This document shows positions 517 through 34,420 of a stretch of 34,420 nt of DNA, piece after piece. Under the pieces are notes generated by a model. The model was not told where the DNA came from and did no database searches. It worked only from the letters and a program-made list of their open reading frames with translations. The stretch spans positions 1 through 34,420 of the forward strand of contig RSEH01000366.1 of NCBI GenBank assembly GCA_006503475.1. The letters are read 5' to 3'. Each line of letters opens with the position of its first letter. Position 1 is the stretch's first letter. The translations under genes were made by a program, and so were the position numbers. Source of the DNA: Stentor roeselii (Eukaryota > Ciliophora > Heterotrichea > Heterotrichida > Stentoridae).

Positions 517-657
517 TATTGAATTAATAGTAATGTATAAGCTTATGCTATTATTAGTCATACTAAATTGTATGATTAGTAGAAATCTATTCAAATCTTT
601 GAAAACTTACAGGTAATTCAAATTTAAAATATAAATTATTCTAATTTTCTATATTCC

Positions 658-2136: not shown

Positions 2137-3610
2137 TTATAAGCAAATTTAAATTATATTATCTATGGTCAATTTTAATCCATGTCTCTAGCCAATCAAA
2201 TCAAAGGAAATCTCTTTGATGTATCACTGTCACGAGAAAAAGATTAAATGAATAACCAGACAGATAATTGATTTCTGTATTACTTTTGGGTAGATAATCT
2301 TCTATTTTACCTTAAAGTCTTTTGCTATACCTGATACTTGATTTTTTCCGTCCAATCAGAGATCCAAGACAGACTCTTCGCAAGATTTTCTCGAATATAA
2401 TAATAGACCGAATGAATTTTCTGAGACAGAGACTTCCTCAACCTCAGACCTTCAGCTTTACATTAAATAGGATAAAATCTAAGTAGTACCAGGCCGGTCT
2501 TTATCTATAGAACTAATAATTATAGAAAATGAAATTCTCTAAAGATTACTAAACCTATTTCGTCACAAGTAAATCCGTCTTAATTTTCTTAAATAGTTAA
2601 TAATAAGTGTTTATTATAAAATCTTTGTTTAATTTACAAGTCAGCACATGATAATAATTAATCTTATTGAAACTATGTAGTTTTTGGTTAAAATCTTAAG
2701 AGCTATATAGCTTTATATAATAAAAATTTAATTATTTTCGATTACAGATTCCGTACTGTCAAAACCTTATATTTCTTGCTATATTTTTATAAAATTCTTT
2801 AATTATAATTCAAAGTCTTCCCAAATGGAAATTACATAGCCATAAATTTTTGAGATAAGACCCTCATTCTGAGAATAATAAACCCTCTTGAATAGATTTG
2901 TCTATATTTAAATAAAAATTCAAGGAATCATTCAATATATATATGATTAAACTAAATCTCAAATATCTTGTCTGACCAGTTTATTTCAATTTGCAGTTTG
3001 GCTGATTGGTGCAGAGATCTTAAATAGAAACTATTTATAAATATTCAAGAGTGACGATTTATTATAATTATATATTGTAAAAACCTAATATACATCTTAT
3101 TATTTACACCTTTTATATAAAAGTTTGAAAATTGGTAAAATCATGATAGTATTTTCGGTAATTGAATTAGATTTGATCTTAGAAATATTATCTAAAAAAA
3201 TATAAATTTAGAGATATAATATTCAAATTCGAAAATAATATTTTATGGCAATCCCACTAGGCATTATAAATTAACTTCCAACCCTTCATATATTATACCT
3301 TTAACTATCTCTTAATTGGATAAATAGTTTGATATTAATTTTATCATAATTACAGTATTAAATGTTTTTAAATCTTATTTTAATATTTAGAAGTAGTTCT
3401 CAGTTTACAATCAATGACTTACCTTGGATGAGTCTAAATTTGGCTTGAGGTTCAATCAATGTTGCAAAGTTTTGGAGTATTGAATCGAAATGATCGTTAA
3501 TATCTAAATATATATTGAAATAATTACTTAATATATAAAGACTTTAAAGTTTATACGATAGATGAGATTATTTGATTTATTCTAATATTATTTAACTATA
3601 TCTATTTTCC
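2137..3610. other. AT-rich intergenic region without a supported gene
   Basis: About 1.5 kb between the CDPK start and the channel stop, dense in stops in all frames. Two short open frames read more like protein than their surroundings. One is 2342-2470 (+), 42 codons with no ATG, ending at TAG. The other is about 3400-3546 (-), with no ATG, containing DINDHFDSILQNFATLIEPQ. Neither has an intron that would link it to a neighbour. They could be exon debris or chance. No tRNA-like fold or tandem repeat was seen. Confidence 0.5.
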
Positions 3611-8872: not shown

Positions 8873-10439
8873 TTTAAATAATCCTAATTTCTAAATTAAA
8901 ATCTTTATAGGATTCGGCAGATCCTCTCTGTGAGAGAAACACAAGCAATTCGATTTATAGATATCCCGAGAAGAGTCTTCTTCGTAATCAAGAATACAAA
9001 ATTTCATCTGAATAATCCTAGCTTAATAGATACCCTAAAATTAATCTTTTCAGATCGGCTGCTACAATACTCATTTTGGATGAATTTTCAGATTGATTTA
9101 CTTAATTTTGGGCTTATAGAAGATAGTCGAAGGAGATACTTCTAAAAATTTAAGAACTTAATTAGATTTGTTTTATCTAAGCCTTGTTAAGAAAAGATTC
9201 TCTCTTAGCTTATGTGGTTTAATATGCGAAAAATCTGGATTCTTTTCTGAAATATTACTAATTATAAGGCTTGGAATGTTTATTAATTCAATCATATATC
9301 AATACTTCTTAGCAAAATTTTTGAAATATAGTCGGGAAAAGATTTAGTATTTCTAAATGATTTAAACTAATATATTTCTTTAGCTTGAGTAATTATCTAT
9401 AATAATCTCTTGAAATTTGGGGAAAAAATGGAAAACACAATCAGAAATGGAATTTGCTTATATATCTTTTTTTCAAAGTATATCTTCAAATAGAGTTTTA
9501 TCAGTCTGGTTTCCTTGCTAAATTCAACTTTTGTATAAAAAGAACTTCTTATATTAATTATGCTCTAACATTATATTTGAAAAATTTGTTAGCTTTTTCC
9601 TATTGAATAAGTAAAATTTATAGTATAATTTTTAGGTTCACATCAAGATACCTCAATCTCTAATTATTCTATTAGTGAAGGAATAGTATTGCAGCGTGAA
9701 AATCATAATGAAGCAAAACTTTTATTTCTACCATATTGCATCATCATCTCTACTTATAAGATTACGATTAAATAATTTTTATTGTTTCTTTGAATTTTGA
9801 TGAGAGATTCTCTTAAAATAAGTTTCGATGACTAGCATTTCGAGTTACTTTTGATAATTCTTAAATTTTAAGAGATTCTCAAGGAAAAACACTCTAAATT
9901 ATTTAATATTGCATAAAAGTAAACTTTAATGAGTCAATGCAGAATCCAGTAAGTGTTTTTATATTAACTATCATCATGTTCTCATCTCATAATATTCACT
10001 TCTATATTATCAGTCTCCTGGGCTGCATCAAATAGATTTTAACATGCTTAACCCTCATATCAGAACAGCTGTCTACTAGTTATTAATCCGCTTCCGTATT
10101 TGGAAATTAGTTAAATATAAAATCTTGAGTGCTTCCTAGTTTTTCATACTACAGCACCTTAAGACTATTCAATTTTCAGCTACTTCTACTTCATCAATCC
10201 CAAAGTAAAACAGGCCTCAATAGGATGGCATATAGACCCAGAATCTTTTGTGTGAAATTCAGGAAATCGTTTATACTAATCTCAAAAACTCAAAGAAACC
10301 CTAAAGTCTTAGAATATTGAAGAAACTACATGATCCACGAAATATAAATTAATATAAGGCATATAGGAAATCATTTGTTTGGTATACCTATTACTCTTTA
10401 GGTCTATATTTATAGATTGTTTTAATAGTTGCTATTAAT
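8873..10439. other. AT-rich intergenic region without a supported gene
   Basis: About 1.6 kb between the divergent starts of the channel and B-box genes. I read one + frame through nearly the whole region. Stops (TAA, TAG and TGA) fall at about one in fourteen codons, as expected for random AT-rich DNA. The two small open frames at 8930-9145 and 10129-10320 lack convincing starts, and I recognise no family. The region presumably holds both promoters, but no discrete element could be defined. Confidence 0.5.
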
Positions 10440-11334
10440 ATGTCCTGCATTTACGAAGACTGCACTGAGGAAATCAAGGCTGTTTGCAAAATTTGCTCTA
10501 AAATAACAATTATGTGCCTTTCACACGCAGAAAAACACGGAAATGAAACTGATCACGAAGTTAGGTTATTGAAACAAGAGGATTTGAAAATGCTATCTTT
10601 AAAAAAACTAAAGTCAACAATAAGAAATTATATCGCTCAGATTGCTGGTGATACTAAAAAAATAATTATTTCATTGAAAAAAGCCTCAAGTGAAGCGATA
10701 AAATCCCTAAAACAATCGAGTAATAATGCAAAGAAAATCTCTGAGTTTGATTCATTTCTATTTTCAAAGGAAAGAGTTTCTTTTCTCATTCATGAGGTTG
10801 GACAAATCTCAAATCATATGAAAATCTTTAATATGAGCGTTCATGAAAAGGATCTCGAAGAAAATCAAGCGTTTTCTGAAGATAATCATAGCGTATATGA
10901 AAAATTTACTGCCCTTGAAATACAAAGGGAAAGTGTAGTGAATAGTTATTTTTAAATAGCTTTCAATCAACTGGATATTCAAGAAAAAAAGAATCAAGCC
11001 ATTCTCATGATTCCTTCTTGTAGATTTACTATTACTATAGAACTTTACATATCCAAAGACGGGAAATATTTGTTTGATTGTATTAAATATAAAGGTATAT
11101 TAAAACTAGATTGTACCCTATAAACAGTCAGAAACTTAGAAATATGTATTCTAAACTTAGGTAATGAATATAGAAGATTGTATCAGTAGTTTAGTAGCTG
11201 TTTGGAACTTGAAGTTGATGAGCATCGAGAAATTGCTATCTGATGATGTGGATGACTACAAAAATGACGGGTCGTATGCAAAACGCTGGAAAAACATATA
11301 TCCGGAATGCAACTATCTGGAATTCAGTGATTAA
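10440..11334 (+). CDS. B-box zinc-finger, coiled-coil protein with propeller-like C-terminus; three tiny introns
   Basis: The unspliced frame stops at 10953, but three small introns restore one frame. Exons are 10440-10944, 10960-11112, 11128-11160 and 11177-11334, giving 282 residues and a TAA stop. Residues C3, C8, C16, C19, C26, H29, H33 and H39 form a B-box-type zinc-binding pattern. A Lys-rich helical stretch (about 45-115) follows, as in TRIM-like proteins. Exons 2-4 encode strand-like sequence (YISKDGKYLFDCIKYKG, SLVAVWNLK) resembling one or two WD-type blades, too few for a full propeller. It may therefore be a shortened family member. There is no RING domain. The first intron is well supported by frame restoration; the last, of 16 nt, is less certain. 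Possible role: adaptor or ubiquitin-linked protein (inference). Confidence 0.65.
10945..10959 (+). other. 15-nt intron 1 of the B-box gene
   Basis: GTTATTTTTAAATAG. It lies in phase 1 and, if retained, gives an in-frame TAA. Removal continues the frame into ..NTFNQLDIQEKK. Size and A-rich 3' half match the other introns in the window. Confidence 0.75.
11113..11127 (+). other. 15-nt intron 2 of the B-box gene
   Basis: GTACCCTATAAACAG, phase 1, in-frame TAA if retained. Removal joins KGILKLD to FRNLEICIL. Confidence 0.65.
11161..11176 (+). other. 16-nt intron 3 of the B-box gene
   Basis: GTAATGAATATAGAAG. Its removal shifts frame and opens 52 further codons to TAA at 11332. A competing 15-nt GT-AG segment at 11180-11194 gives only a short tail before TGA. 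Confidence 0.55.
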
Positions 11335-11939
11335 AGTAGTTTAGATAAAAATAGATCAAATTAAATGAGTTATATAATATTATAAAGTTTATAAAACCAA
11401 TATCCTCTAGTTTGAATTATTAATATAAGCTTATACTTGAAGATTTTCAATCAATTATTTACTGATGCATGGCATAAAATAAATAATTCGAAGTAATGGT
11501 ACTCATTAAGGCATCAATAACCAAAATTTAGAAATTATATTGAGATTGATATTCTATAAGTAAAGATGTGAGATAAACTGATTTATTTTATTAACCTATT
11601 GATGCAATCAATGATATAGAATCAAATGACAAAGTCCAAGAGTAAAATAATTTCAATAAAAATTATAAAATAAATGACGGATATACCTCTCGACTTCGAA
11701 TACCCTCTTATAATGACTATTAATACCAAATTCATCTATAGTCTACAAACCTCTTGCCTACCTATTCTCCAGGTACATAAACAATTTATACTCTATTGCC
11801 CATATATTGTCAATATACAAGACCCCATACCTAATGTCTACCTTTGACCTACAAAGTCTACATGCTGTTCACATTTTTCTATTTGAAATCTCCCTTCGTG
11901 ACCTAATTCACAAAAAACTAAATTTTCATTCCCATTAGC
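11335..11939. other. AT-rich intergenic region, nothing recognised
   Basis: About 600 bp between the B-box gene stop and the WD40-like remnant. No open frame with protein character, no tRNA-like structure and no repeat were seen. A C-rich stretch around 11690-11890 on the + strand differs in base use from its surroundings but reads as no gene. Confidence 0.5.
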
Positions 11940-12540
11940 TTAGAGAGCATTGAAAAATTTTAAGATTCCAGACAATAAAATTATTTATGTTGCCTCTTGA
12001 ACAAATAACTATCAGGTTAATTCCTGAAGAAATGAATACATCCTCAACAATTTCAAGTTTCAAATGAATTCAATATTTCCGCTTATAATGCAAAAAAATA
12101 TTCCTTGATCATCAAACATACTTCTTTGAATGGCTTCAAACTTCAAAAGATACAAATTTTTTAAGGTTTCTTGCGATTCCGATTTTTGAGTCATAAGAAG
12201 CTGAAAAAATTAAACCATTGGCAGTTGTAAGTCCTTAAATATGATCTTTGTGAAAACTTAATTATCGGATTCAGTTTTACCTTGATGCTTAATAGGTTAC
12301 TGTTTCATCAAAGATCCTGAAATAATAAACTTGTCACCTGCAGTTAGTGAAACAGAATAGACTCCTGAGTATATCCTGAAAGAGTTGTGATATGAAAATA
12401 AGAGTTGCTTCCATATTGAACTTATTTATCTTCTGGGTTGGTTATAATAAATTTTCATTTTTGGTAAGAGCTATTGAACTAATAGCTTCAAAAGCGATAT
12501 TTATTGAAGAGGAAACAACTTGGGCACTTTTATAAAATCC
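11940..12540 (-). pseudogene. Decayed WD40-repeat-like gene
   Basis: Read on the minus strand, five fragments in two or three alternating frames each look like a WD-type blade. They are SAQVVSSSINIAF..SSIALTKNENLL (12520-12440), YSGVYSVSLTAGDKFIISGS (about 12375-12300), TTANGLIFSASYDSKIGIAR (about 12237-12161), MFDDQGIFFCIISGNIEFI then TGA then NLK (about 12119-12061), and SGINLIVICSRG with NNFIVWNLK (about 12050-11941). The spacing of roughly 100-110 bp is close to one WD repeat. Stops and frameshifts separate them, and one TGA sits where WNLK would need Trp. No 15-16 nt intron repairs these breaks. A coiled-coil-like bit (EEIEDFVINL, near 12590) may be the upstream end. Once part of a WD40 gene, now broken; the exact limits are unclear. 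Confidence 0.6.
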
Positions 12541-13120
12541 TTATACGAAGTCATCATTAAATTATAATAATTAAGTTTATAACAAAATCTTCGATTTCTT
12601 CTTAAAAGACTTCAAGTTTTCTTAAACATATCTAAATAATCAAAAAATCTTAGAATATTTTAAATAATAATTCAAAAATTTTGATTAGAAAATGGAACAA
12701 GTCGAAAATTTTATTTGAATAATTACAAAACCTTTGAGTTTACATCTAAATATCGAAAACCAACTTTCAATCTTCTTTCATTATATTCTTAACTTAAATT
12801 GTTATAATTAAAAACTTTTTCATAACTAATATTAAATAAAATCCTAAGAAACTCAAGGCTATGCTATTTAAAAATGATTATTTTCACAAGAATATGAAAA
12901 AATCTTGATTTTATCATTCCAAACTTATTAAAACCTATTTACCCAAAATCAGACACCATAAACTATTTAAATCAAAAGACATTATAATAATAATTTATTA
13001 AATAATGAACAAAGCTCTAAATTTCCAGGAAAATTTAAAATTTCCAAGAAAATCCCTCAAAAACCTAATTTCCTTCCTTTTAATCTCTCAACTCTCCTAA
13101 AACTAATCCAAATTCCAGAG
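12541..13120. other. AT-rich upstream region of the Cys-rich protein gene
   Basis: About 580 bp of A/T runs. The left end may hold more of the decayed WD40-like gene. No other gene is visible. The right end leads into a candidate TATA element. Confidence 0.45.
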
Positions 13121-13128: not shown

Positions 13129-13168
13129 AAAATCTGATCTCTCTAATATCAACTCGCTTCATAATAAA

Positions 13169-15220
13169 ATGTGGACTATATTGATAGTTATCTTTGCCTC
13201 ATTAGCTGCAAGTCAGTGCAGTGATGACTGTTTAAAATGTGACGAAGTTCTCGACCCCGCAAGATGCGTGAGCTGTGGACCAGGTCTATTCCCAACAGAA
13301 GAGTCCTGCTCCGAATGCAATCAAGTTCCCTACAAATGCATATCATCCGGAATAAACGATGTCTGGACCTGCTTCTGCACAGACCCCGAGTCAACCAACC
13401 ATCAAGGCAGCTGCCCTGGGGACTGTTCTCATTGTTCTGCCGAGCAAGGCGAAAGTTGTCTTGTGTGTCCACTTGGAAGCTTCTTGAACTCAGAAGAAGA
13501 ATGTGAAAGTTGCTTGAGCCAATGCTCTTCTTGTTCAGATTTAACAACTTGCCGAGAATGTTCCAACGGGCACGTCCTCGTCGATGACTTCTGCTGTTTG
13601 CCTGGTTGCTTGAAATGTGACGCGCTTCAATGTTTTAAATGCCAGGACGATCTTTACTTGGTTAATGGATTCTGCTTGAAGAGTCTCCCACTTGCAGGGT
13701 ATTTTTTTAATGGAAATGAAATTCAACCTTGTGCTGAACTTTGTGAGAGATGTGATGCTGCTGGATGCATTCAGTGTAAAGACGGCTTGGGACTTGTTAA
13801 TGGAGAATGCGTCGCTTGTGTCAGGGAACCTTGTGGGGAATGCCAGAGAGATTGCAGAATGTGCGCTGATAGGGAATGCCAGGTGTGCAAGGATGGGTTC
13901 TTCCTTACATCTGACTCTCTTTGTGTTAGTAAAGGATGCTTTGAGGGATGCATGGCTATTGGAATTAATGGACTTTGCACTCAGTGTGCACCGGGGTTTA
14001 AACTCCTCTTCAAATATAAGCTGGAAGGATGCTGTGTACCCGTTTGTCCTCATGACAAATGCGCAATTGTCTCTTGGATTGGAACCTGCATCACTTGTCA
14101 GTATGGATACTACCCGGTAGGGAAATGCTGTGCTCCTAAATGTCCTAATCCACAGTTCTGTCTTGCTTTTGATCTGTGGAGCTGGTGTGTGAAGTGTCAA
14201 AAAGGGTATTACCTAAGTCCTTCTGGGTGTTGCGTAAAACTTTGCTGCAAAGCTTCACAGAAGGGATGCTCTAAAATCGATATTTACGGAAATTGTGTTG
14301 GGTGTTATCCTGGGTGGGGACTCACAGCTGACGGATGTTGTCTTCCCAAATGTGAAAATAATCATTTACTTTATTACTCTACTATTTCAGGAGCCCTTTG
14401 CTTTAAGTGTGAGCCTGGCTATTACCCAATACATAATGGTTGCTGTGCTACGAAATGTTGTGAAAGGTCAAGGGTTCAATGTTTGCAGTTCGATTCATGG
14501 GGCAATTGCCTTCAATGCTCTCCAGGATGGATCACAGATGATCACGGATGTTGTGTACCTAAATGCTCTAAAGGTCATGTGATTAGTTACCTTACATTCA
14601 CTATTCCAAAACAGTGGTGCTTCAAGTGTGAAAAAGGATATTTCATGACTGCGCAGGGATGCTGTGCGCCTCGATGTTGCAAAAAATCGATGGATGCATG
14701 TCTGGCAATCGGAATCGACAACTGGTGTGTTAAATGCCGAGATGGCTGGGTTCTTGATAAGAGCGGCTGCTGTATTCCAAAATGTGACTTTGGCCATATG
14801 ATAACTTATGTTACTACAGTAGGGGAAATTTGCTTCAAATGTGAGAATGGATACGGTGAACTCTCTAATGGGTGCTGTGCTCCACTATGCCTTTATGGAC
14901 ATTGCTTAGCCTATTTCCCCAACGGGTGGTGTGCTAAATGCGAGGAAAACTATAAACTCAATGATCAAGGATGCTGTGAACCTTCCTGTGATATGCCCTG
15001 GCTTTGCGTTGATGAAAATGGTTATGGCTACTGCAAGATCTGCCCAGATGGTTATTGGAATCATCCGAGTGGGTGTTGTGCACCTATTTGCAAGAATGAC
15101 TATCTCTGTGAAACTTACAGATTTGACGGATTTTGTGAGAAATGCATCATCGGAGCTTATATGTTCAACAACTGCTGCTATCTGTTCGATATCGACCCAA
15201 ATGTTGACCCAAAGAATTAG
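13169..15220 (+). CDS. Secreted Cys-rich protein built from Gly-Cys-Cys repeat modules
   Basis: A 683-residue protein with a clear signal peptide (MWTILIVIFASLAASQC) and no other membrane helix or GPI-like tail, so probably secreted. The first third has furin-like/growth-factor-receptor-type CxxC repeats (CKCDEVLDPARCVSC style). From about residue 285 it changes to modules of 33-38 residues ending in GCC-x-P-[KR]-C (GCCAPRC, GCCVPKC), each with an internal CxxC and a GY or GW. Twelve CC-x2-C cores and a final CC can be counted. Modules alternate between a type beginning CCKxS and one beginning GHxI(S/T)Y with CFKC. Ciliate surface and secreted proteins often use such spacing, but I do not recognise this module from a named family. 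The gene is convergent with the acidic repeat protein gene. A likely role in a coat, matrix or secretory granule is inference. Confidence 0.85.
   Translation: MWTILIVIFASLAASQCSDDCLKCDEVLDPARCVSCGPGLFPTEESCSECNQVPYKCISSGINDVWTCFCTDPESTNHQGSCPGDCSHCSAEQGESCLVCPLGSFLNSEEECESCLSQCSSCSDLTTCRECSNGHVLVDDFCCLPGCLKCDALQCFKCQDDLYLVNGFCLKSLPLAGYFFNGNEIQPCAELCERCDAAGCIQCKDGLGLVNGECVACVREPCGECQRDCRMCADRECQVCKDGFFLTSDSLCVSKGCFEGCMAIGINGLCTQCAPGFKLLFKYKLEGCCVPVCPHDKCAIVSWIGTCITCQYGYYPVGKCCAPKCPNPQFCLAFDLWSWCVKCQKGYYLSPSGCCVKLCCKASQKGCSKIDIYGNCVGCYPGWGLTADGCCLPKCENNHLLYYSTISGALCFKCEPGYYPIHNGCCATKCCERSRVQCLQFDSWGNCLQCSPGWITDDHGCCVPKCSKGHVISYLTFTIPKQWCFKCEKGYFMTAQGCCAPRCCKKSMDACLAIGIDNWCVKCRDGWVLDKSGCCIPKCDFGHMITYVTTVGEICFKCENGYGELSNGCCAPLCLYGHCLAYFPNGWCAKCEENYKLNDQGCCEPSCDMPWLCVDENGYGYCKICPDGYWNHPSGCCAPICKNDYLCETYRFDGFCEKCIIGAYMFNNCCYLFDIDPNVDPKN
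14241..14880 (+). repeat. Higher-order repeat: three A-B module pairs in the Cys-rich protein
   Basis: A-type modules start near 14243, 14455 and 14673. B-type modules start near 14350, 14563 and 14781. One A-B pair is about 213-219 bp (71-73 residues). A modules carry CCKAS, CCERS or CCKKS and end GCC-x-PKC. B modules carry GHVISY or GHMITY, CFKCE and GY. The A-B pair, not the single module, appears to be the duplicated unit. Confidence 0.75.
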
Positions 15221-15586: not shown

Positions 15587-18500
15587 CTAAACTCTATTAA
15601 TTTGCAAGAAATTGACATAAGTGCTTTCATACTCTTCTTCCAAATAAGCCAGTTCTTCAAGAGCCTGATCCAACTCCTGAATCTGTTTCTTAAGTAACCC
15701 AGCTTCATTCTGCATCCTTGCAAGTTCAACAAATCCTTTATCCAAATCACTACTAGGACAATAATTCTGATTATCCGAAAGCAAATGATAAAAATCATAT
15801 TCCCCACAAGTTCCATTATTATACTCAGTCGCAGAAGAAGTCTGACAAAGAGCCGAGCTTTCACACCATCCACATTCTTTGTTATTAATACAAAGCGAGC
15901 AACTAGTATACGCGTCACAATCCACTGAAGGGCACTCCAAATAACTGAAACTTTCACATTCAGCAGAACTCGGGCCTTGACTGTCTCCATCAACACAAAG
16001 GTTTTCACTGGGGCACCAAACGCAGTAGTTGTTCAACGCGCAAGCCGCGCAGTTTGTTTCTTGGTCGCAAGAGTTGCTTATGCCCAACTCGTCTTCTTGG
16101 TCTGATATCGACAGGTAGACCTTGTTTAGCTCCAGCTCTGCTTTTTTCTTCTCTGAGGATAAGGAAGTTTTAGAGTACTCGGCTTGGTATAGAAAAGTGT
16201 CGTCTAGTCTTGCTGAGAGAGAGTCAAGGGAAGAGTCTTCGGATGATTCACTTTCTTTTGATGAGTCTGATGATGGGGAAGATTCGCTGGATGAATCGCT
16301 TGACTCTGAAGAATTGGAATCTTCTGAGAGAGAGGATTGGCTTTCGGAGTCTTGGGATGTTGCAGGGCTTTCGATGTTGGAGTCGGATTCGGAAGTATTT
16401 TGGTTTGTGGAGGAAAGATCGTCGGAGGTTGTATTTTCGTTTGTTTTTGAATCTTCTGTTGTTTCTGGGTTGGTTTGATTTGAGAATTCTTCAGAAGATT
16501 CCGTATCATTTTCACTAATTAATGAATCTTCAGAGATTTCTGTTTCATTCTGACTACTTGAATTATTTTCAGATTCAGTAATATTATCGCTACTCAATGA
16601 CTCTTCAGTACTCTCATCAGTATCATTTTGACTACTAGAAGAATTACCTTCAAGTTCAGTTTCATTTCCACTATTCAAAGACTCCTCAGATGTTTCAGAT
16701 TGGTTTTTACTTGCTAAATCATTTTCAGAGTCAGTTAGATTGTCGCTTGTTAATGATTCATCTGTATTCTCAGTATCATTCTGACTACTACTAGAATAGT
16801 TTCCTTCTAGTTCAGTCGTGTTTTCGGTAATTAAAGACTCCTCAGTTATTTCTGTTTGATTTTCGCTTGTTGAATCGTTTTCAGAATCAATTATATTACT
16901 GCTCAATGATTCTTCAGTACTCTCAGTATCATTCTGACCACTAGAATAGTTTGATTCGATTTCAGTCGTATTTTCGGTAATTAAAGACTCCTCAATTGCT
17001 TCTGTTTGATTTTCGCTTGTTGAATCGTTTTCAGAATCAGTTATATTACTGCTCAATGATTCTTCAGTACTCTCAGTATCATTCTGACCACTAGAATAGT
17101 TTGATTCGATTTCAGTCGTATTTTCGGTAATTAAAGACTCCTCAGCTGTTTCTGTTTGATTTTCGCTTGTTGAATCGTTTTCAGAATCAGTTATATTACT
17201 GCTCAATGATTCTTCAGTACTCTCAGTATCATTCTGACCACTAGAATAGTTTCCTTCTATTTCAGTCGTGTTTTCGGTAATTAAAGACTCTTCAGCTGCT
17301 TCTGTTTGATTTTCACTCGTTGAATCGTTTTCAGATTCAGTTATATTGCTGCTCAATGATTCTTCAGTACTCTCTGTATCATTTTGACTACTTGAATAAC
17401 TTGATTCGATTTCAGTCGTATTTTCGGTAATTAAAGACTCCTCAATTGCTTCTGTTTGATTTTCACTCGTTGAATCAGTCTCAGATTCCGTTATATTACT
17501 ATCCAATGATACTTCAGTGCTCTCTGTATCATTCTGATCACTAGAATAGTTCGATTCGATTTCAGTCGTATTTTCGGTAATTAAAGACTCCTCAGTTGTT
17601 TCTGTTTGGTTTTCACTTGTTGAATCAGTCTCAGATTCAGTTATATTACTATCCAATGATTCTTCAGTACTCTCTGTATCATTTTGATTATTTGAATAGC
17701 TTGATTCGATTTCAGTCGTATTTTCGGTAATTAAAGACTCCTCAGCTGTTTCTGTTTGGTTTTCACTTGTTGAATCAGTCTCAGATTCAGTTATATTACT
17801 GCTCAATGATTCTTCAGTGATCTCAGTATCATTCTGACTACTACTTGAATAGTTTTCTTCTAGTTCAGTCGTATTTTCGGTAATTAAAGAATCCTCAGTT
17901 GTTTCTGTTTGGTTTTCACTTGTTGAATAGTTCTCAGATTCAGTTATATTGCTGCTCAATGATTCTTCAGTGCTCTCTGTATCATTCTGATCACTAGAAT
18001 AGTTTGATTCGATTTCAGTCGTATTTTCGGTGGTTAAAGACTCCTCAGCTGTTTCTGTTTGGTTTTCACTTGTTGAATAGTTTTCAGATTCAGTTATATT
18101 ACTATCCAATGATTCTTCAGTGCTCTCAGTATCATTCTGACTTTCAGAAGAATTTTCTTCAAGTTCAGTTGTATTGTCACCGCTTATTGTTTCATTATCA
18201 CTAGTTGAGTTATTTTCAGAATCTGTTAAATTATCACTTATTATTAACTCTTCAGTGCTCTCTGTATCATTTTGACTAGTTGAAGAGTTTTCCTCAAGTT
18301 CATTTGAATAGTCATTGTTTAATGACTCTTCAGTTGTTTCTGTTTCATTTTGATTCATGGAATTATTTTCAGTTTCAGTTAAATTTTCAATTGTACTCGA
18401 CTCTTCAGAGATTTCTGTATTGTTCAGGGTATTTAATGACTGATCTTCAGTATCGTTTTGATTGCTTAACGACTCTGAATTTTCATCAGTTTCTGTGTTG

Positions 18501-19780
18501 TTAGAAGTTGTTTGTCCTTCAGAGTCAGATTCATTAGATACTGATTCATATTGATCCGAAGTTTCAGTTTGGTTACTTGAAATTTGTTCTTCTGAATCGT
18601 TATCATTATTACCTGATAGTTGTTCATCACTTGTTGATTGACTTTCTTCTGTCTCATTCATTCCTGATTGCTCATCAGCTAAAGTATCATTTTGACCAGA
18701 TGAATTATTTTCATTACTTTCCGATTCATTGCTAACTGAATTATAATCATCACTCGTTCCATTACCTTCGACACCACTTTCTTCAACAGAGTCGGTTTCG
18801 TCACTTGTGGACAGTCCTTCAACCTCTGTATTATTACTTGTTTCTTCACTTTCTTGATTCGTTTCATCACCGCTGTATGAATTATCGAGACTAGTAGAAG
18901 ATTCTTCTTCAGTATTCGAATTATTACTGGATTGCTGTTCTTCAGTATTATTATAGTCAATTATTGATTCTTCCTCATTAGTACTGCTTGCTGTTTGGTT
19001 TTCAGTGCTAGAATTTTCTTCATCTTGAGAACTGATTTCTGAAACATAACTTTCTTCTAATATTTGAGAGGTATTATCTTGACTCTCCGCATTCTCTGAT
19101 TCAGCCAGTTCACTTGAGTTATTATCATAATCATTCTGGGTAGAGCTCTGATCACTTGAAGATAGTTCATTATACTCACTTGTGCTATTATCATTCTCTT
19201 CATTCTGGGTAGAATTACTAGAAGATCCCTCTTCAAAGTAATCACTCGACCCATTACTATCCTCATAATTCTGACTAGAGTTTTCACTACTTCCATTCAA
19301 ATAAGACTCCCCATCAGAGCTCTGCTCCGCGACTTGACTACTTTCATCATTCGATAGACTTTCAATTTCACTTCCTCCACTTTCACCATTACTTGTCTCT
19401 TCAACATGACTTTCTTCTGTTGAGTTCTGAGCAGAAAGACTTGAATTTTGATCACTTTCAAGACTTGCACTCGAATCACTTAAATCTGAAGTATTCGAAT
19501 CACTTGTTTCATTTAAGTTTGACTGAGAATCTTCTGAGTTATTTGAATTCTCTGATGAATAAGTCTGGTCTTCATCACTTGTTGAGTTTGTGTCTTGCTG
19601 AAGGAACGAAAAGCTTGTTTGCAAAAATTCAGGTTGTTCAAATGGCAAGATTTCTAGTCTTTCGACTGATAATGCAACCTCTATCAAGTTGGACAGAGAG
19701 TTTAATTCAGATGCATCGTTTTTAATTGTTGACCTGGCGAAGGTCAGGGTTCCAATGAAGATCAGCAGCTTCATAACCAT
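15587..19780 (-). CDS. Secreted acidic Ser/Thr/Asn-rich repeat protein with PSI-like domains
   Basis: A 1,397-residue protein. A signal peptide (MVMKLLIFIGTLTF) is followed by a very long acidic region nearly free of Lys and Arg. Its core is a tandem array of 50-residue repeats, each with six N-glycosylation sequons (NDT, NIT, NDS, NQT, NTT, NYS in the typical copy). The C-terminal part has two Cys clusters of PSI type: CAACALNNYCVWC near residue 1240 and CSLCINNKECGWC near 1290. A coiled coil (about 1349-1394) ends the protein. This looks like a mucin-like glycoprotein with a folded anchor domain. No transmembrane helix is visible after the signal. It likely works outside the cell or in secretory vesicles; a partner role with the neighbouring Cys-rich protein is inference. 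The start is the first ATG of the signal peptide; M3 is an alternative. Confidence 0.85.
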   Translation of the reverse strand: MVMKLLIFIGTLTFARSTIKNDASELNSLSNLIEVALSVERLEILPFEQPEFLQTSFSFLQQDTNSTSDEDQTYSSENSNNSEDSQSNLNETSDSNTSDLSDSSASLESDQNSSLSAQNSTEESHVEETSNGESGGSEIESLSNDESSQVAEQSSDGESYLNGSSENSSQNYEDSNGSSDYFEEGSSSNSTQNEENDNSTSEYNELSSSDQSSTQNDYDNNSSELAESENAESQDNTSQILEESYVSEISSQDEENSSTENQTASSTNEEESIIDYNNTEEQQSSNNSNTEEESSTSLDNSYSGDETNQESEETSNNTEVEGLSTSDETDSVEESGVEGNGTSDDYNSVSNESESNENNSSGQNDTLADEQSGMNETEESQSTSDEQLSGNNDNDSEEQISSNQTETSDQYESVSNESDSEGQTTSNNTETDENSESLSNQNDTEDQSLNTLNNTEISEESSTIENLTETENNSMNQNETETTEESLNNDYSNELEENSSTSQNDTESTEELIISDNLTDSENNSTSDNETISGDNTTELEENSSESQNDTESTEESLDSNITESENYSTSENQTETAEESLTTENTTEIESNYSSDQNDTESTEESLSSNITESENYSTSENQTETTEDSLITENTTELEENYSSSSQNDTEITEESLSSNITESETDSTSENQTETAEESLITENTTEIESSYSNNQNDTESTEESLDSNITESETDSTSENQTETTEESLITENTTEIESNYSSDQNDTESTEVSLDSNITESETDSTSENQTEAIEESLITENTTEIESSYSSSQNDTESTEESLSSNITESENDSTSENQTEAAEESLITENTTEIEGNYSSGQNDTESTEESLSSNITDSENDSTSENQTETAEESLITENTTEIESNYSSGQNDTESTEESLSSNITDSENDSTSENQTEAIEESLITENTTEIESNYSSGQNDTESTEESLSSNIIDSENDSTSENQTEITEESLITENTTELEGNYSSSSQNDTENTDESLTSDNLTDSENDLASKNQSETSEESLNSGNETELEGNSSSSQNDTDESTEESLSSDNITESENNSSSQNETEISEDSLISENDTESSEEFSNQTNPETTEDSKTNENTTSDDLSSTNQNTSESDSNIESPATSQDSESQSSLSEDSNSSESSDSSSESSPSSDSSKESESSEDSSLDSLSARLDDTFLYQAEYSKTSLSSEKKKAELELNKVYLSISDQEDELGISNSCDQETNCAACALNNYCVWCPSENLCVDGDSQGPSSAECESFSYLECPSVDCDAYTSCSLCINNKECGWCESSALCQTSSATEYNNGTCGEYDFYHLLSDNQNYCPSSDLDKGFVELARMQNEAGLLKKQIQELDQALEELAYLEEEYESTYVNFLQINRV
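16801..18160 (-). repeat. 150-bp tandem repeat array in the acidic glycoprotein gene
   Basis: The landmark gctcaatgat or atccaatgat recurs at 16901, 17051, 17201, 17351, 17501, 17651, 17801, 17954 and 18104. That is exactly 150 bp apart, except one interval of 153 bp with an extra codon. Nine units of regular length are flanked by more diverged copies on both sides. High DNA identity between copies suggests recent unequal exchange or gene conversion. Confidence 0.92.
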
Positions 19781-27312: not shown

Positions 27313-28143
27313 ATGGGAAGAAGAGGCACTAAGAGCAAAATTTCTACACAGAAAAAGAAACATCAGTCGCCGCAGTCTGTTGTTAAGTCATCTGCAAGTA
27401 TTCCAATCAAAAATCCTTCAAAGCAGGGCCCGCGTAAATCAAAGAGTGACGAGCTAAGTAAGATACTTAGAGTATCTCTTAAAGATTTGACTGAAACTTT
27501 AGCGTCTCGACTGGCGTTTTCTTATCGGGAATCTTCTCCTGGATACTCTTCAGTGACTTTGGCAGCCGTTCAAGAACCCAGCGAGAAAATCGACTCAATT
27601 CTGTCCTCTTTAGTAATGGAGTTAATCGAAGATATCCTAGGTCAAGTCCCAAAAGCTCCAGACCTGTGCATCTTTTTACAAGAAGCTTTAGAATGCACAA
27701 CAGCAGCAGGAGAGCTTTTAAGCCATTTCTGCAGTGAAGACTCAGCTCGTCACATGTGCCGTCTAAGTTTCTTTTACAAAATCTTAAAACCCGCATGGGA
27801 CGTGAAGAAAGGACTAAGCAAGAACCATTCAGTTAAGACAATGTTTAAAGAACAATCGTCATTTGCGAAGAACTTCAAAGACTTCAGCGTCCTTCCACTT
27901 GAAAATCTTGTTCAGTTGATTAACGGAAACAACTCTTCTAAGGTCTTTGCAAGAGTTTGCATGAATGACAGTACTGAAGGCTCCATTTCTCCTGACTTTA
28001 GCGTTGATTCGGAAGTAGAAGAGTTTCAATTGCGACTTGAAAGATGTGAAAAAGTTTGTATTAGGATGAAACCTCTTGTTTCACAAGAGTGGATTAACCT
28101 TTTGAGAAGACAGATAAGAGAAAACCTTGAACTGTCTAATTAA
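27313..28143 (+). CDS. Protein of unknown function with basic N-terminus
   Basis: A 276-residue protein, not recognised. The first ~45 residues are strongly basic and disordered (MGRRGTKSKISTQKKKHQ), which could be a nuclear signal. The remainder is predicted mostly helical with conserved-looking hydrophobic patches (SLVMELIEDILGQV, DLCIFLQEALECTTAAGELL, HMCRLSFFYKILKPAW). The end is charged and helical (VSQEWINLLRRQIRENLEL). No catalytic motif, Cys cluster or membrane segment. ATG 27313 follows a short A/T leader. It lies 159 bp before the next gene on the same strand. Confidence 0.7.
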   Translation: MGRRGTKSKISTQKKKHQSPQSVVKSSASIPIKNPSKQGPRKSKSDELSKILRVSLKDLTETLASRLAFSYRESSPGYSSVTLAAVQEPSEKIDSILSSLVMELIEDILGQVPKAPDLCIFLQEALECTTAAGELLSHFCSEDSARHMCRLSFFYKILKPAWDVKKGLSKNHSVKTMFKEQSSFAKNFKDFSVLPLENLVQLINGNNSSKVFARVCMNDSTEGSISPDFSVDSEVEEFQLRLERCEKVCIRMKPLVSQEWINLLRRQIRENLELSN

Positions 28144-28302
28144 AATATCTTAAACTCAGTAATAATCTTTGTGATTAAGAACTTAAGAAATCATGAAAAC
28201 ATCAAAAAATTTTCCATAAATCTCTAAACCTAGTAAAAATTCATTCTAAAGACCAAAAGAACCCTAAAATCCTTTTCACCAAAAAATTTTTCATAAATAC
28301 TT

Positions 28303-29958
28303 ATGTGTAATGATTCTCTCTCCATCCTCTCAAACCGGAGAAAAAACGAGTCTTCTCTTTCAGTCCGTCGAAAACTAAAAAAGCTATTCAAAGAACTTTC
28401 AACACGTTGCGGAAGTCTCATGCTTGACAGGGAACTTTTCCTTCGACTGACGTTGTTACCAGGTCTTTTAGGCGAGCAAGTTTTTAACTCACTAGACGAA
28501 GACGAGGACAACAAACTTGACGTGAAAGAGTTCGTATTAGGCCTTTGCACGATTTACGAAGGTTCTCTAGAGTCAGTCTGTGACTTTCTCTTTAAAGTCT
28601 TCAACTTCACCCGCAATGGTCAAATAAGCCGAATCGACGTGAAGAGCATTTATGAGTACCTTCCAAATATCTGTCATAAATGTAAAAAGTCATTTAGCCC
28701 AACTTGGGACTTACCTGAAGTCCTTCAGCAGTTCTTTGAAAGTGAAAAATTTCTGGTTTTTGAAAGTTTTCTTGAAAAAACAATTGCAAGACCTGAAGTT
28801 TGTGAACTTGTCCTTCAGAATATCCTCGGATTTTTACCTGAAGTTTTTGATGATATCTTCACTGAAGAGCTAGAAATAAAAAAAAACCAAAAAGTGCAGT
28901 TTGAAGGTTTTTTGAAGTATAAAAAAAGGTCTTATTTCGCAATACTTAAAAAAAACTCTCTTTTTTTATCTAGAAAAAAAGGCTCAAGGACCAAATCGAT
29001 TATTTTAACAAGTGATCTTTTTCTAGACACCCAAGAAAATCTGCAATTTTCTCTAAAAAACGGAAAATATTCTTATGACTTCCAAGCAAGTCACTCAGAA
29101 GACAAGCAGAACTGGATCGACCATCTTTTAACAACAAACAAATCACGCGATATCCACAAAGACTACAAGATTCTCGAAAAAGTGATCGGAAAAGGTGCTT
29201 ACGGTAAAGTAAAACTCGCTGAAAATCTAACAACTTCCGAGATAGTTGCCGTGAAAATCATCTCAAAAGAGCCTTTAGACAACAGGTCAGCGACACGTCT
29301 TCGTCGAGAAATAAGCATTCTTCAGATCTGTCATCATGAAAACATAGTCGCATTAAAAGACATCTACGAGACTTTCGACAATTTCTTCATAGTAACTGAA
29401 TACGTTCAAGGCGGATCTTTATTCTCTTGGATCAAAACTCGTGGATTTCGTGTAGATGAAGAAACTGCAAAGTTAATAATTTTTTCTATTGCTAAAGCTG
29501 TTCAGTACCTTCATTCACTCGGCATCGTCCATCGAGACATCAAATTAGAAAACATCTTACTCGACACTTCTTCAGACGTTAAACCAAAAATCATCGATTT
29601 TGGACTAAGTTGCATGTTAGGCCCTGGGCAGTTCTCTCAAGAAGCAGTAGGGACTTTAAAATACGCTTCACCTGAACTTATCTCACGGATTCCTTATCGT
29701 GAAACACCTGATGTCTGGGGAATCGGAGTCATTCTTTACATTCTTCTTACTGGAAAAATTCCTTTTTATGGAGAAAACGACCAAGAAATCGCGAATCGAA
29801 TTCTTAAGAAAAAAATCGATCTGGATAATGAAAGATGGGCAGAAATCAGCTGTGATGCGAAAGATGTCGTCGCAAGGCTTCTCACTCGTAAGGCGAATGA
29901 AAGGATGAAGATTCAGGAGTTGCTTGAACATTCTTGGTTTGATGGAAAAAAGTTATAA
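28303..29958 (+). CDS. EF-hand / PH / protein kinase, CDPK7-like architecture
   Basis: A 551-residue protein with calcium-binding elements before the kinase, the reverse of a normal CDPK. EF loop 1 is D65-E-D-E-D-N-K-L-D-V-K-E76; loop 2 (about N101-D112, NFTRNGQISRID) is weaker. A PH-like domain spans about 197-278, with VQFEGFLKYKKRSYFAIL and the usual C-terminal Trp (W271). The kinase domain (about 288-547) looks fully active: GKGAYGKV at 296-303, K318, HRD at 410-412 with LEN, DFG at 432-434, SPE at 456-458 and the PDVWGIGVILY helix. This EF-PH-kinase order is known from apicomplexan CDPK7. Lipid-directed, calcium-sensitive signalling is the expected role. It lies 35 bp before the histidine-kinase-like gene on the same strand. 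Confidence 0.88.
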   Translation: MCNDSLSILSNRRKNESSLSVRRKLKKLFKELSTRCGSLMLDRELFLRLTLLPGLLGEQVFNSLDEDEDNKLDVKEFVLGLCTIYEGSLESVCDFLFKVFNFTRNGQISRIDVKSIYEYLPNICHKCKKSFSPTWDLPEVLQQFFESEKFLVFESFLEKTIARPEVCELVLQNILGFLPEVFDDIFTEELEIKKNQKVQFEGFLKYKKRSYFAILKKNSLFLSRKKGSRTKSIILTSDLFLDTQENLQFSLKNGKYSYDFQASHSEDKQNWIDHLLTTNKSRDIHKDYKILEKVIGKGAYGKVKLAENLTTSEIVAVKIISKEPLDNRSATRLRREISILQICHHENIVALKDIYETFDNFFIVTEYVQGGSLFSWIKTRGFRVDEETAKLIIFSIAKAVQYLHSLGIVHRDIKLENILLDTSSDVKPKIIDFGLSCMLGPGQFSQEAVGTLKYASPELISRIPYRETPDVWGIGVILYILLTGKIPFYGENDQEIANRILKKKIDLDNERWAEISCDAKDVVARLLTRKANERMKIQELLEHSWFDGKKL

Positions 29959-29993
29959 ATATTTGGTTTTGTTGAGGGTTAATAAGAATAGAA

Positions 29994-32279
29994 ATGCAAA
30001 AATCAGGCAAAGACTGGACTTTTCGATTTGGAGATATTCAGGATTTATTTAGAACTGACATGTTAAATTTGAAGACTTCTAAGTATCTCCTAGCTTTTTG
30101 CCTTATTCTGGTAATTTCTTTAGAATGCTTTCAAGAAACGGTTCCTTGGTACTTGTCTCTTTTTCTACTTTTTCCTCTTGTTTCGAATAGGATTTTACAG
30201 CAAGGAATTTTAGAGGTTTTCTCTTTTTTTTACTTAAAAGAAGTACTTAGTGATAGTTTCTTGCAAGCGCTTGGAGGACTTTTGCCTTCTTTTCTTATTG
30301 CGTACTGCTTTTGCAGCAGTTTAGAAGTTTTTTCAGGATTGTTTTTTTTGAAGTTTTTTCTGCTGCAGTCTTTGAGCCCTGCTTTGTTTTTTTCCTTCTT
30401 GGTTTACTTTTTACTTTTCTTTCTCTTGCAACGTGACCTCCGGCGGGTTTGGCTGAAATCAAGAGAAAAACAAGAAAAAAACGCGATTTTTAATGAACTT
30501 TGGATGACGATCCCTTTTCCAGTCCTTCTTCTCAATCATCAAAATACTTTCATTCAATGCAACTTTGCATTTCAAGAGAAATTTAAAGGAAAAAAACGGG
30601 TTGATGAAATGTTTCAAGGCGAAAACAACAGAAAAATTCTCCAAATGACTGGAAAAGTCGCTCAAGGAAGACCCTTTGACCAGGCGATTCTCAGAGAAAA
30701 TAACTGTGTCTGGCTTGTATTTGTAAGAAATGTTGACTGGAAGATTCAAAGATGCGCTGAAATCAGTTTCATTGAAATGACTGACGAAAAAATCAACAAA
30801 CAAGCATTTTCACCAATTCTTGAAAAAAATTCAGAACTTTTAAAAAATTTCGAAAAAAGAACTTTAGAAATTTTTTTTCAACAGGAAAAATTGGACTGTT
30901 GTTTTTTAAAGGTTTTCAATGAAATTTGTGTTAATTTCTGGATTTTTAAGATTTTTTTGGAATTGCAGGTGAAATGTGAAGATGACTTGAAAGGACTGGA
31001 TTTTTGTATTGAATTGTTGAATGCTGTGGAAATTTGTTATAGTTCTGAGGATTCGAAGGAAGTTTCTTTTCAGATAAATTTTAACACGAGGAAGTTTTTT
31101 GTTTTTACGAATGAGGTGAAGTTAAAAGTTTATCTTTTTACACTTTTGAGTTTTATTAAGTTGAAAGCAAGAGAAGACTCGATGGTGACTTTGACGGTGA
31201 AAGAAACTGAATCAAATCAGAATGCGAGTCGTCAAAGTCTTATTATCAACTTTGTGTCAGCATCTCTGAGCCTTTTAGAGATCGAAGCTTTTTTACAGCC
31301 ACGAAGCTTACGGATAGATGAGCCGATCGACCTTCCACAGATCTCGGCATGGCTCTTGGCACAGATTGGAAAGGGGCTGAATATTGAGGTGCAGCGGCCT
31401 TGCCTTTCAAACAACCTCTTCTCCCTCGAGCTTCTTCTAAACTTCCAAAATTTCGACCAAAGCCAAAACCACCCAACTGCCCCTCGAGTCCTTCTCTGGC
31501 AAAACCCAATAAAAACACGTCAAAAAACTCAAGAAAACCTGAAACTAACTCATCCAATTTCCATATTTCTCCTTCCAAAGCCTATTCTCAAGCTAAAAAA
31601 ACTCGAAATAAAAAGCAACTCCAGCAAAAACTCAAGTCTCAACGAATCTCCTCAATCTCTTCCAAACTTTCTCCACCCTAGAAGTTTTGCGACAATTGCA
31701 GGAATATCAGGTGGATTTTTAAAGCGTTCAGCAACAGTCTTCAAACTTCGAAAATCACGGAAAAACAATAATCGTTCTCCGAACTATTCACCAACAAACA
31801 ATCGGCCAATAAAGCGATTTTTTTTTCGTGAAAGTCTAAAAAAGTTGAATTTTGAATTCGGTGTTTTTAAAGTTTTAATCGTCGACGATTTTGAAGAAGG
31901 CCGTAGAGTGTTGCAGGGTTTATTGAAAGTAATAATGAATGTCAGTTGTGAGTTCGCAAAAGATGGACTTGGAGCAATAGAGATGTTTGAGAGTTACGCA
32001 GGTCAAGGGTTTATGTACCAAGTGATTTTCATGGATTTAGTCATGCCGAGGATGGGCGGGTACGACGCCGCTTTACAGATAAGAGGAAGGGAAAAGAAAA
32101 ACTCTTTTCCAAGGACTTTTATTTGTGCTGTTAGTGGAGATAGTGACTGTTATGAAAAAGTTGCTAAGTTTGATATAGATGAAGTAGGTAAGGGGTAAAT
32201 AGCTATCAAGCCTCTTGATATCGCTAAAATTGAAGCTGTTGTTAGGCATGCCAAAGCAATCAATGAAGCCACTGAATGA
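29994..32279 (+). CDS. Membrane hybrid histidine kinase-like protein with degenerate kinase core and intact receiver; one 15-nt intron
   Basis: Exons are 29994-32187 and 32203-32279, giving 756 residues. The N-terminus (about 28-155) has several membrane helices. A PAS-like region (about 165-260) follows (MTIPFPVLLLNHQNTFIQCN). Where a His-containing H-box should stand (about 278-300), the helix NSELLKNFEKRTLEIFFQQE has no His. The ATP-binding region lacks a recognisable N-box and G-boxes (LFTLLSFIKLKAREDS sits at the N-box position). A Ser/Asn-rich linker leads to a complete receiver: D631-D632, D681 (FMDLVMPRMGG), S714 and K734. The last of these is created only by splicing (DEV-AIKPL). So phosphotransfer from itself is unlikely, and the receiver may be fed by another kinase (inference). 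The stop TGA lies 13 bp before the next start. Confidence 0.85.
32188..32202 (+). other. 15-nt intron in the histidine-kinase-like gene
   Basis: GTAAGGGGTAAATAG in phase 1. Retained, it ends the protein at TAG (32196-32198). Removed, it restores the receiver's conserved Lys-Pro and its last helix. The conserved Lys makes this intron the best supported in the window. Confidence 0.92.
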
Positions 32280-32292
32280 TTTTAGTAATAAT

Positions 32293-33870
32293 ATGGAAGT
32301 CGTCGATGTTAGACTACTTGTCATGGCTGTTTCAGCGGATTTGATGAAGAAATTGCAGGAAGTCGTTAAGTATAAAAGACCGAATCTTGTTGAGTATTGC
32401 TCGAAAACTCGATCTTTGTTGAAAAGGGTTAAAAAAATTGTGACTTGGTGTAAAAATTACTCTATTGTACTTAAAAAGGAAAAGGAACTCACTGAATGGC
32501 TTGATGAACGAAAAGCGATTCAGAAGTCGATTGCTCAACTTTTCTTCGAGCTAAAAACCCAGCAATCAATAAGCCTACGAACAGCTCCATTCGCAATAGC
32601 AGAAGCCAGTGACGTTCTCTGTCGTCAAGAGTACTTCGGTTTCCCAGTTCTCCAAACCTTCGACAAGAAAGAAAAAGTTCCAGTATCAAAATTAAACCGT
32701 TTAATGAAGCACAAGTGTTTATCTTTAGACCTTCCTTTAGGCGCATCAATAAGAATAGAAGAAGGTTTATTGAAAGTAAGAAGAGAAGAGTTTTACTTCA
32801 AGTTCACCTTAACCCCTGAATTTGAATGGGAACTTTTAAAGCCAAACTACTTGCGTAAGTTCATTTATCAACCAGAGTTAAAATGGAAGTTCATCAAACC
32901 CTTTCGACTAAGAAGCCAAGAATTGACCCCAGCGCAGGTAACAAGCAAATAGGCAGAAGCGATTCATTCAGAAATCTCAAATGCTATAAAAAGTTGTAAC
33001 AAGTCTCAGATCCTAGTAGAAACTGATGGAATCTTAAAGAGAAAAGGACTTGTTTCACTTCTTCGGTTTTTATATACTCAGGGTAGAGGCTTAAAGAAGT
33101 TTTCAATGAATTATAATGAAAAAAGCTCTTTGCAAATAAATTATTGGCCTGAATTCCCTTCTTGTGTCATTTTAAAGATTAAAGATGAGACTATTGAAGT
33201 TTTGAATTATCCTCATTCTTTTCATGTTGACTTCTCAAATGACCTGACACTTATGATAGACTCAGCTATTCAAAAACATAAAAAATTAAGACTTGAAAAA
33301 ATTGGAATTTTTGATGAAGAAGTGTCGAGAGTTGTCTTTGATGGGGAATATGGAAGAACTGAAGTGGATGTTAATTATTTCTCTGGAAGTTTCGTGGTTT
33401 ATATGAAGGGAAAAGTTGATAATGAACTTGCAAGTGCTTTGAATTGTGGAAATTTTGAAGAATTTTATCAGATGATGGAGAGAAAGGCGATCACTGCCAC
33501 TGTTGAAAGCTTTTGTAGAGGGTTTGGGAAACAGTTGGTGCAGGAACCTCTGAGGTTCTGTAAGTGTCTTTATTTGATGAATGAAAGTCATAGAAGGGAG
33601 AATATTATAGGATATGTTGATCTCGGTTCAGTACTTCCAACAGATCCGATGGGAAACATGTTAGTTTTTGCATTAAGAATCTGTAAAAATCCAATAAAAT
33701 CAGAACTTGTCGCTTTCAACGAGACCAAAGAAGAGCACATCATTCACATTCTGGACCTAAAACCTGAAATTTCATTAGAAAGTTTTTTAAAGAAAAGCAT
33801 TATTCAAGGAAAAGACAGAATGATGCTTATGAGAATTCCAATAACTTTACTTTCTAAACCAGAAATTTAA
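32293..33870 (+). CDS. MED14: Mediator subunit 14-like protein; one 15-nt intron
   Basis: Exons are 32293-32937 and 32953-33870, giving 520 residues. The order of motifs follows the N-terminal half of MED14/RGR1, the backbone subunit of the Mediator complex of RNA polymerase II. It opens with a helix plus RSLLKRVKKIVTWCKNY (41-57), matching the family's LKFANRTRQLFIRLLALVKW region. A helical stretch then leads to FAIAEASDVLCRQEYFGFP (100-118), matching the PAAIDVLTTGSYPRLP region. Next come LDLPLGASIRIEEGLLKVRR, FEWELLKPNYL (like WRLLKLEIL) and LQINYWPEFP. Typical members exceed 1,000 residues, so this one is short and lacks the C-terminal half. The start could be one of the upstream in-frame ATGs, but those overlap the previous gene. 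Recognised by eye only. The stop lies 4 bp from the stop of the convergent gene. Confidence 0.68.
32938..32952 (+). other. 15-nt intron in the MED14-like gene
   Basis: GTAACAAGCAAATAG in phase 0, whose last codon would be a TAG stop. Removal fuses LTPAQ to AEAIHSEI and keeps one open frame through 33870. Confidence 0.88.
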
Positions 33871-33874
33871 CTAA

Positions 33875-34420
33875 TTAATTTTCTTTATCATTTACCTCCA
33901 ATGATAAGAATTCTGCTTTTCCTGCGGGTGAAATTCTTGGAACTGGGGCGCCTGCGTCGTGTAAGTTGTTAACACCACCAATGACTGTTTTGGCAATTGA
34001 GCCAATGGTCTTGAAAATTGTTTTCGCTACAACGGTAGCTGGATCTTCGGGGGTTGCAGGATTATCATCAGCAGGAGTGTCATCAGCAGGAGTGTCATCA
34101 GCAGGAGTGTCATCGGCAGCTCCAGGTTCATCAGAACCTGTGCTTGTGGGAGCAGGGTCTTCTGTGCCAGGGGCAGTATCTGAGGGGGCACTGGAAGAGG
34201 TTTCTTCAGGATCTTGTTTCAAATTCATTTGGATAGCCTCAGTTTCTTCTGTGGTATCTTCAGTTGTTTCATCGTCATCCAATTCTGCAAAGAACTCTTC
34301 TAAAGTCTCTTGTTTTGTTTGAATGGCTTCAGTTTCTTCAGTCGTTTCTTCAGTTGTTTCATCGTCATCCAATTCTGCAAACAACTCTTCTAAAGTCTCT
34401 TGTTTTGTTTGAATGGCCTG
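33875..34420 (-). CDS. Partial acidic repeat protein, 5' end outside the window
   Basis: An open frame of about 180 codons enters from the right edge and ends at TAA 33875-33877. No ATG start is inside the window. The visible N-terminal part is a 30-residue acidic repeat (EEFFAELDDDETTE, AIQTKQETL). Then comes a Pro/Ala/Asp-rich stretch with four DDTPA-like units, and an Ala/Val/Ile tail (VAKTIFKTIGSIAKTVIGGV) that may be amphipathic. The C-terminus is EFLSLEVNDKEN. Not recognised. The acidic repeats suggest a binding or secreted spacer protein, but nothing shows a signal peptide because the start is missing. Confidence 0.7.
   Translation of the reverse strand, partial: QAIQTKQETLEELFAELDDDETTEETTEETEAIQTKQETLEEFFAELDDDETTEDTTEETEAIQMNLKQDPEETSSSAPSDTAPGTEDPAPTSTGSDEPGAADDTPADDTPADDTPADDNPATPEDPATVVAKTIFKTIGSIAKTVIGGVNNLHDAGAPVPRISPAGKAEFLSLEVNDKEN
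34061..34120 (-). repeat. Four tandem 15-bp units in the acidic repeat gene
   Basis: gtgtcatcagcagga repeats with few changes and encodes DDTPA units (the first-read copy on + is DDNPA). Confidence 0.9.
34231..34420 (-). repeat. 90-bp tandem repeat in the acidic repeat gene, continuing past the edge
   Basis: gtctcttgttttgtttgaat recurs 90 bp apart (ending in 34321 and 34411 regions). Each unit encodes 30 residues ending AIQTKQETL. At least two copies are seen, and a partial third (TEAIQMNLKQ) begins the divergence at the left end. Confidence 0.85.

Follow-up and report, generated by a model that had tools for sequence, protein, structure and literature searches.

MED14 forms the backbone of Mediator, a complex that assists RNA polymerase II in starting transcription. 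Yeast Med14 is a protein of 1082 residues. Its residues 1-711 cross-link to the middle module of Mediator and its C-terminal region contacts the tail; when the C-terminal part is deleted, the tail subunits are lost (PMC4631838). In human MED14, the KID, RM1, and RM2 regions have been placed at residues 1-578, and a human core Mediator whose MED14 consists of the N-terminal half only (the construct tested comprised residues 1-760) sustains basal as well as p53-activated transcription and also binds RPB1 (PMC12719649).

The Mediator of ciliates has been described as strongly divergent. In Paramecium, MED31 alone was recognized by similarity, and in Tetrahymena the account given is of MED31 with ciliate-specific partners and most components missing (PMC12716044). 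According to the same paper, several Tetrahymena subunits had been predicted by Bourbon 2008 (PMC2475620), and a review describes the Tetrahymena complex as divergent and found through Med31 (PMC6562869). A literature search, outside which most subscription papers fell, retrieved no work treating MED14 together with Stentor, and none of the titles among the matches listed concerned a heterotrich Mediator.

We analyzed a stretch of 34,420 nucleotides (the window), the full length of its contig, and found in it a gene of two exons in the same frame, at 32293-33870, whose spliced product has 520 residues (215 codons from exon 1 and 305 from exon 2). Its parts are as follows:

32293 to 32937, plus strand: MED14 exon 1, 215 aa, with the N-terminal Med14 domain (PF08638)
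32938 to 32952, plus strand: 15-nt intron GTAACAAGCAAATAG, which has A at position 10 and ends in an in-frame TAG
32953 to 33870, plus strand: MED14 exon 2, 305 aa followed by TAA, probably the repeat region, as suggested by its place in the gene

Once the 15 bases are removed, ...RSQELTPAQ runs directly into AEAIHSEIS..., and the coordinates and the splicing of the frames confirmed both the intron and the length of 520 residues proposed in the initial annotation. The start of the protein is uncertain. The frame is open upstream as far as 32203 and has two additional in-frame ATG codons at 32248 and 32263, both overlapping the coding end of the neighboring gene, and in the genome-wide search the PF08638 match begins at 32260, upstream of the ATG at 32293.

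The MED14 identity that had been claimed for the gene was established for exon 1. Against Pfam, exon 1 matched PF08638 with 36.3 bits (E 5e-9; curated cut-off 25.6), and two further families gave E-values of 0.025 and 0.047, under their cut-offs. A search of the whole genome (44.4 Mb) with PF08638 returned this locus with 37 bits as the sole match at E <= 1. The four best matches of exon 1 in PDB were all MED14 chains (E 7.7e-8 to 3.3e-7), in an alignment that placed exon 1 on human MED14 residues 68-251; they made up four of the six matches at E <= 10, the others being Nesprin-1 (E 0.3) and one at E 0.78. An HMM built from three MED14 proteins found exon 1 at E 5e-5. The initial annotation had also proposed a profile-profile comparison, and with small home-made profiles this was positive for exon 1 and negative for exon 2. 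For exon 1, hhalign gave E 2.3e-7 over residues 29-187 against human MED14 and E 4.5e-6 against a profile of human and S. pombe. The corresponding results for exon 2 were a single non-colinear match to human MED14 with a probability of 0.2%, and a probability of 0.1% against human and S. pombe.

The domain order is the same, as far as it can be detected, as in the Med14 of S. pombe and S. cerevisiae (PDB 5n9j, 5u0p, 7ui9). Compared with the N-terminal half of human MED14, the N-terminal domain is homologous, and the overall length would be similar provided that exon 2 represents the repeats.

The intron that separates the exons belongs to a type that recurs in this genome. We counted the places where two frames, each 100 codons or longer, are joined across a GTA...AG element of 11-40 nt, in 230,278 bases made up of 20 other stretches of the same genome and the window. 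The commonest length was 15 nt (n = 5), followed by 20 nt (n = 3); these counts are small, and the five joins of 15 nt include the MED14 intron. A control with GCA...AG gave one join at 15 nt and at most two at any length. All five of the counted 15-mers had A at position 10, and the sole join of 16 nt overlaps a 15-nt intron of the upstream neighbor. In the window alone, at a limit of 60 codons, there was no excess at 15 nt, with one join each at 15, 16, 19, and 20 nt.

Three independent cases came from other genes. The exons of MED31 are also joined by a 15-nt intron, as are those of MED7, where the intron GTACCATCCAGTTAG was read from the DNA. The third lies in the upstream neighbor, too close to the end of the gene to enter the join count:

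32188 to 32202, plus strand: upstream-gene intron GTAAGGGGTAAATAG, 15 nt, A at position 10, a supporting case outside MED14

Its splicing restores the end of the upstream gene as ...DIDEVAIKPLDIAKIEAVVRHAKAINEATE, followed by TGA at 32277-32279.

Stentor coeruleus likewise has 15-nt GT...AG introns with A at position 10 and standard stops: of its 8806 annotated introns, 8173 are 15 nt long, and the branch A is mostly at position 10 (PMC9505925). In Blepharisma stoltei, UGA is read as tryptophan (PMC9942806). In our data TGA works as a stop: 11 frames of 250 codons or more terminate in TGA, after which a mean of 5.5 further codons are open, and TGA occurred in none of 23 tubulin matches. This use of TGA fits Stentor and not Blepharisma stoltei, and Blepharisma was therefore ruled out as the source. 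The sequences thus combine a TGA stop with introns that are 15 nt long, run from GT to AG, and have A at position 10, as is typical of Stentor, and it is on intron anatomy and stop-codon use that the assignment to the ciliates is based. Reading of TAG as a sense codon was also considered. Among frames of 250 codons or more, 20 terminate in TAG, beyond which the median open continuation is 13 codons, and the three continuations that run longest (243, 263, and 382 codons) are the downstream exons of counted 15-nt introns. The continuation of 305 codons behind a TAG in the MED14 gene stands outside this set, exon 1 being just below the limit of 250 codons. Read-through was rejected, since the long continuations are exons behind 15-nt introns.

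The upstream neighbor is a 740-aa frame whose only Pfam match is a response-regulator domain (PF00072, E 1e-9), and 13 bases lie between its TGA and the MED14 ATG. The two belong to a series of four tightly packed plus-strand genes at 27313-33870, and the gap between them is very short for separate promoters. Elsewhere in the window, the G+C content steps from 26-30% in positions 1-12000 to 34-39% from 12001 on, with the jump near 13 kb (about 12750-13000), which could reflect an isochore-like organization or the joining of two sources. A plus-strand frame at 13130-15220 encodes a cysteine-rich repeat protein of 696 aa that, judged by eye, has a signal-peptide-like start. On the minus strand, 15587-19780 holds a frame of 1397 aa that has a long Ser/Thr/Asn/Glu repeat array rich in N-x-S/T and whose end is rich in cysteine; on inspection by eye, its product looks like a surface or secreted protein.

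A stop codon stands between the two frames of the MED14 gene, as would be expected if they were separate genes or a pseudogene broken by the TAG. We find this hardly credible, because the stop sits exactly within a 15-nt GTA...AG element of the type that splits MED31, MED7, and the upstream neighbor, and both frames are otherwise open. The pattern GTA-N6-A-N3-AG occurs 12 times on the plus strand of the window, about once per 2.9 kb, so that its placement by chance exactly on the sole stop between the exons is unlikely. At its other end, the gene is closed in by a further frame:

33875 to 34420, minus strand: convergent open frame of at least 181 aa, acidic and repetitive, running off the contig end inside a repeat

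This frame ends four bases past the MED14 stop codon, which leaves no coding room for more MED14 beyond 33870, and the C-terminal half that contacts the tail appears to be absent at the locus. Additional exons or a separate gene could still supply that half, in which case MED14 would not be reduced at all. A match of the RM5 model elsewhere in the genome, in a 53-aa frame of L030 (E 0.027), would fit such an arrangement, but it is weak and under the cut-off (19.5 bits against 22), and together with the convergent frame this makes a longer MED14 quite improbable. The C-terminal half is regarded here as peculiar to the long form and not as a criterion for the family. From the placement of exon 1 on human residues 68-251, the protein would by length end near human residue 580. 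The gene had been described in advance as a minimal MED14 keeping the part that binds the head and middle modules; the N-terminal domain and the lack of room for a C-terminal half agree with that description, and its extension to exon 2, for which no significant match was found, is by deduction.

Exon 2 is the part of the protein for which an origin outside MED14 has to be weighed. It could be an unrelated, lineage-specific domain that has replaced the MED14 repeats behind a genuine N-terminal domain, and the protein would then still dock on the head and middle modules, via a different scaffold. Exon 2 has no database match: it gave no family in Pfam, in particular no match to RM2 or RM3, the RM2 model had zero matches across the genome, and the best of its PDB matches, none of them credible, was at E 0.43, to unrelated enzymes. 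Most comparisons were no better than shuffles. Its score against human MED14 was reached by 83 of 500 shuffles in local and 309 of 500 in global alignment, and that against yeast Med14 by 286 of 1000; with the HMM of three MED14 proteins it stood outside the 12 best rows, and one shuffled sequence reached E 0.0085. AlphaFold without relatives was uninformative, with a pLDDT of 34 both for the read-through protein and for a model of the first 215 aa of exon 2. Against this, a marginal similarity falls at the expected place. Exon 2 aligns colinearly with S. pombe Med14 268-413 (LRLYYWPQL aligned with LQINYWPEF) with a score of 64, where shuffles had a mean of 42.5 (s.d. 6.8) and reached the score in 20 of 2000 cases. 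With a three-species MED14 profile, exon 2 scored 25.3, where shuffles scored 19.5 (s.d. 3.0) and six of 150 reached it, as did none of 47 other open frames, the best of which scored 25.2; these are several tests of one idea, uncorrected for their number. The known MED14 proteins are themselves weakly conserved in this region, with a domain E-value of 13 between yeast and S. pombe. Given these marginal colinear matches and the poor conservation among known MED14 proteins, exon 2 is probably, but not demonstrably, the repeat region that follows the N-terminal domain. We infer its membership in MED14 from position only, and consider a lineage-specific replacement unlikely, though with a somewhat better claim than a hidden C-terminal half.

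The best reading is that of a genuine MED14 cut down to roughly human residues 1-578. It belongs to a known family, and its tail-less form is plausible, if unproven. We consider it likely that the gene encodes the only detected MED14 of the organism, reduced to the part that builds the core of Mediator. Exon 1 is the N-terminal domain that joins the middle and head modules in yeast and human, and exon 2 would supply the repeats that extend along the middle module. The protein is predicted to enter Mediator, to scaffold the head and middle modules together, and to help them grip RNA polymerase II. Without the C-terminal half, by which the yeast protein holds the tail, it would be a head-middle scaffold that lacks tail docking. 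Human MED14 extends to residue 1454, and its N-terminal half was obtained by engineering (1-760, PMC12719649), whereas the end found here is that of a natural gene.

The initial annotation had also stated that ciliate Mediator subunits are hard to find by search. This is untrue of MED14, MED6, MED7, and MED31 in this genome, all of which were found by ordinary Pfam models. Genome searches placed MED31 (E 6.0e-26), MED7 (E 1.8e-15, or 3.4e-18 when spliced), and MED6 (E 1.3e-26) over their cut-offs, as the three of eight other subunit models that passed. A gene for MED21 is probably present as well, to judge from the best match of its model in the genome:

L031, 1498 to 1836, minus strand: MED21 candidate, 112 aa

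This candidate had E 0.009 in the genome and 6.3e-7 alone, with 30.2 bits under a cut-off of 37.3. MED10 gave nothing better than E 0.71 in the genome search, and no match at E <= 1 was obtained for MED12, for MED16 (a tail subunit), or for MED17 (the main partner in the head), in searches that were without a positive control. The results for MED17 and MED10 count against the reading given above. The Mediator models matched none of 14 control genomes, of which those named were prokaryotes. In viral contigs, a search for relatives gave seven pattern matches with P0001 and 14 with P0002, none of them confirmed.

The MED31 domain was found in a spliced frame of 452 aa that also contains an enoyl-CoA hydratase/HIBCH-type domain:

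L002 (C494), 1830 to 457, minus strand, intron 1633-1619: MED31 fusion frame, PF05669 at residues 9-105 (E 2e-29) and ECH_2 at residues 130-442 (E 1e-47)

A Mediator subunit appears here to be fused to a metabolic-enzyme domain. To our knowledge, no fusion of this kind has been described.

MED31 is recognizable here, as it is in Tetrahymena and Paramecium (PMC12716044). Unlike those two ciliates as they are described in that paper, MED14, MED6, and MED7 were also found with ordinary Pfam models. The presence of four plainly recognizable subunits, MED14, MED6, MED7, and MED31, in a Stentor-like genome suggests that the ancestor of ciliates may have had a conventional Mediator core and that the divergence came later. 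The sequences are useful for reconstructing the ciliate Mediator and could seed profiles for the subunits missing in other ciliates, although a finding of this kind is in itself unsurprising.

More tentatively, and with somewhat less than even confidence, we propose a natural core-only Mediator, in which MED14 stops at the point where its tail-binding half would otherwise start and there is no tail module. Activators would then reach RNA polymerase II via the head and middle modules or via lineage-specific subunits. If this is true, the human core Mediator engineered to carry only the N-terminal half of MED14 would gain a natural counterpart, and a MED14 that ends naturally at the core would raise the question of how far regulation can go in the absence of a tail.
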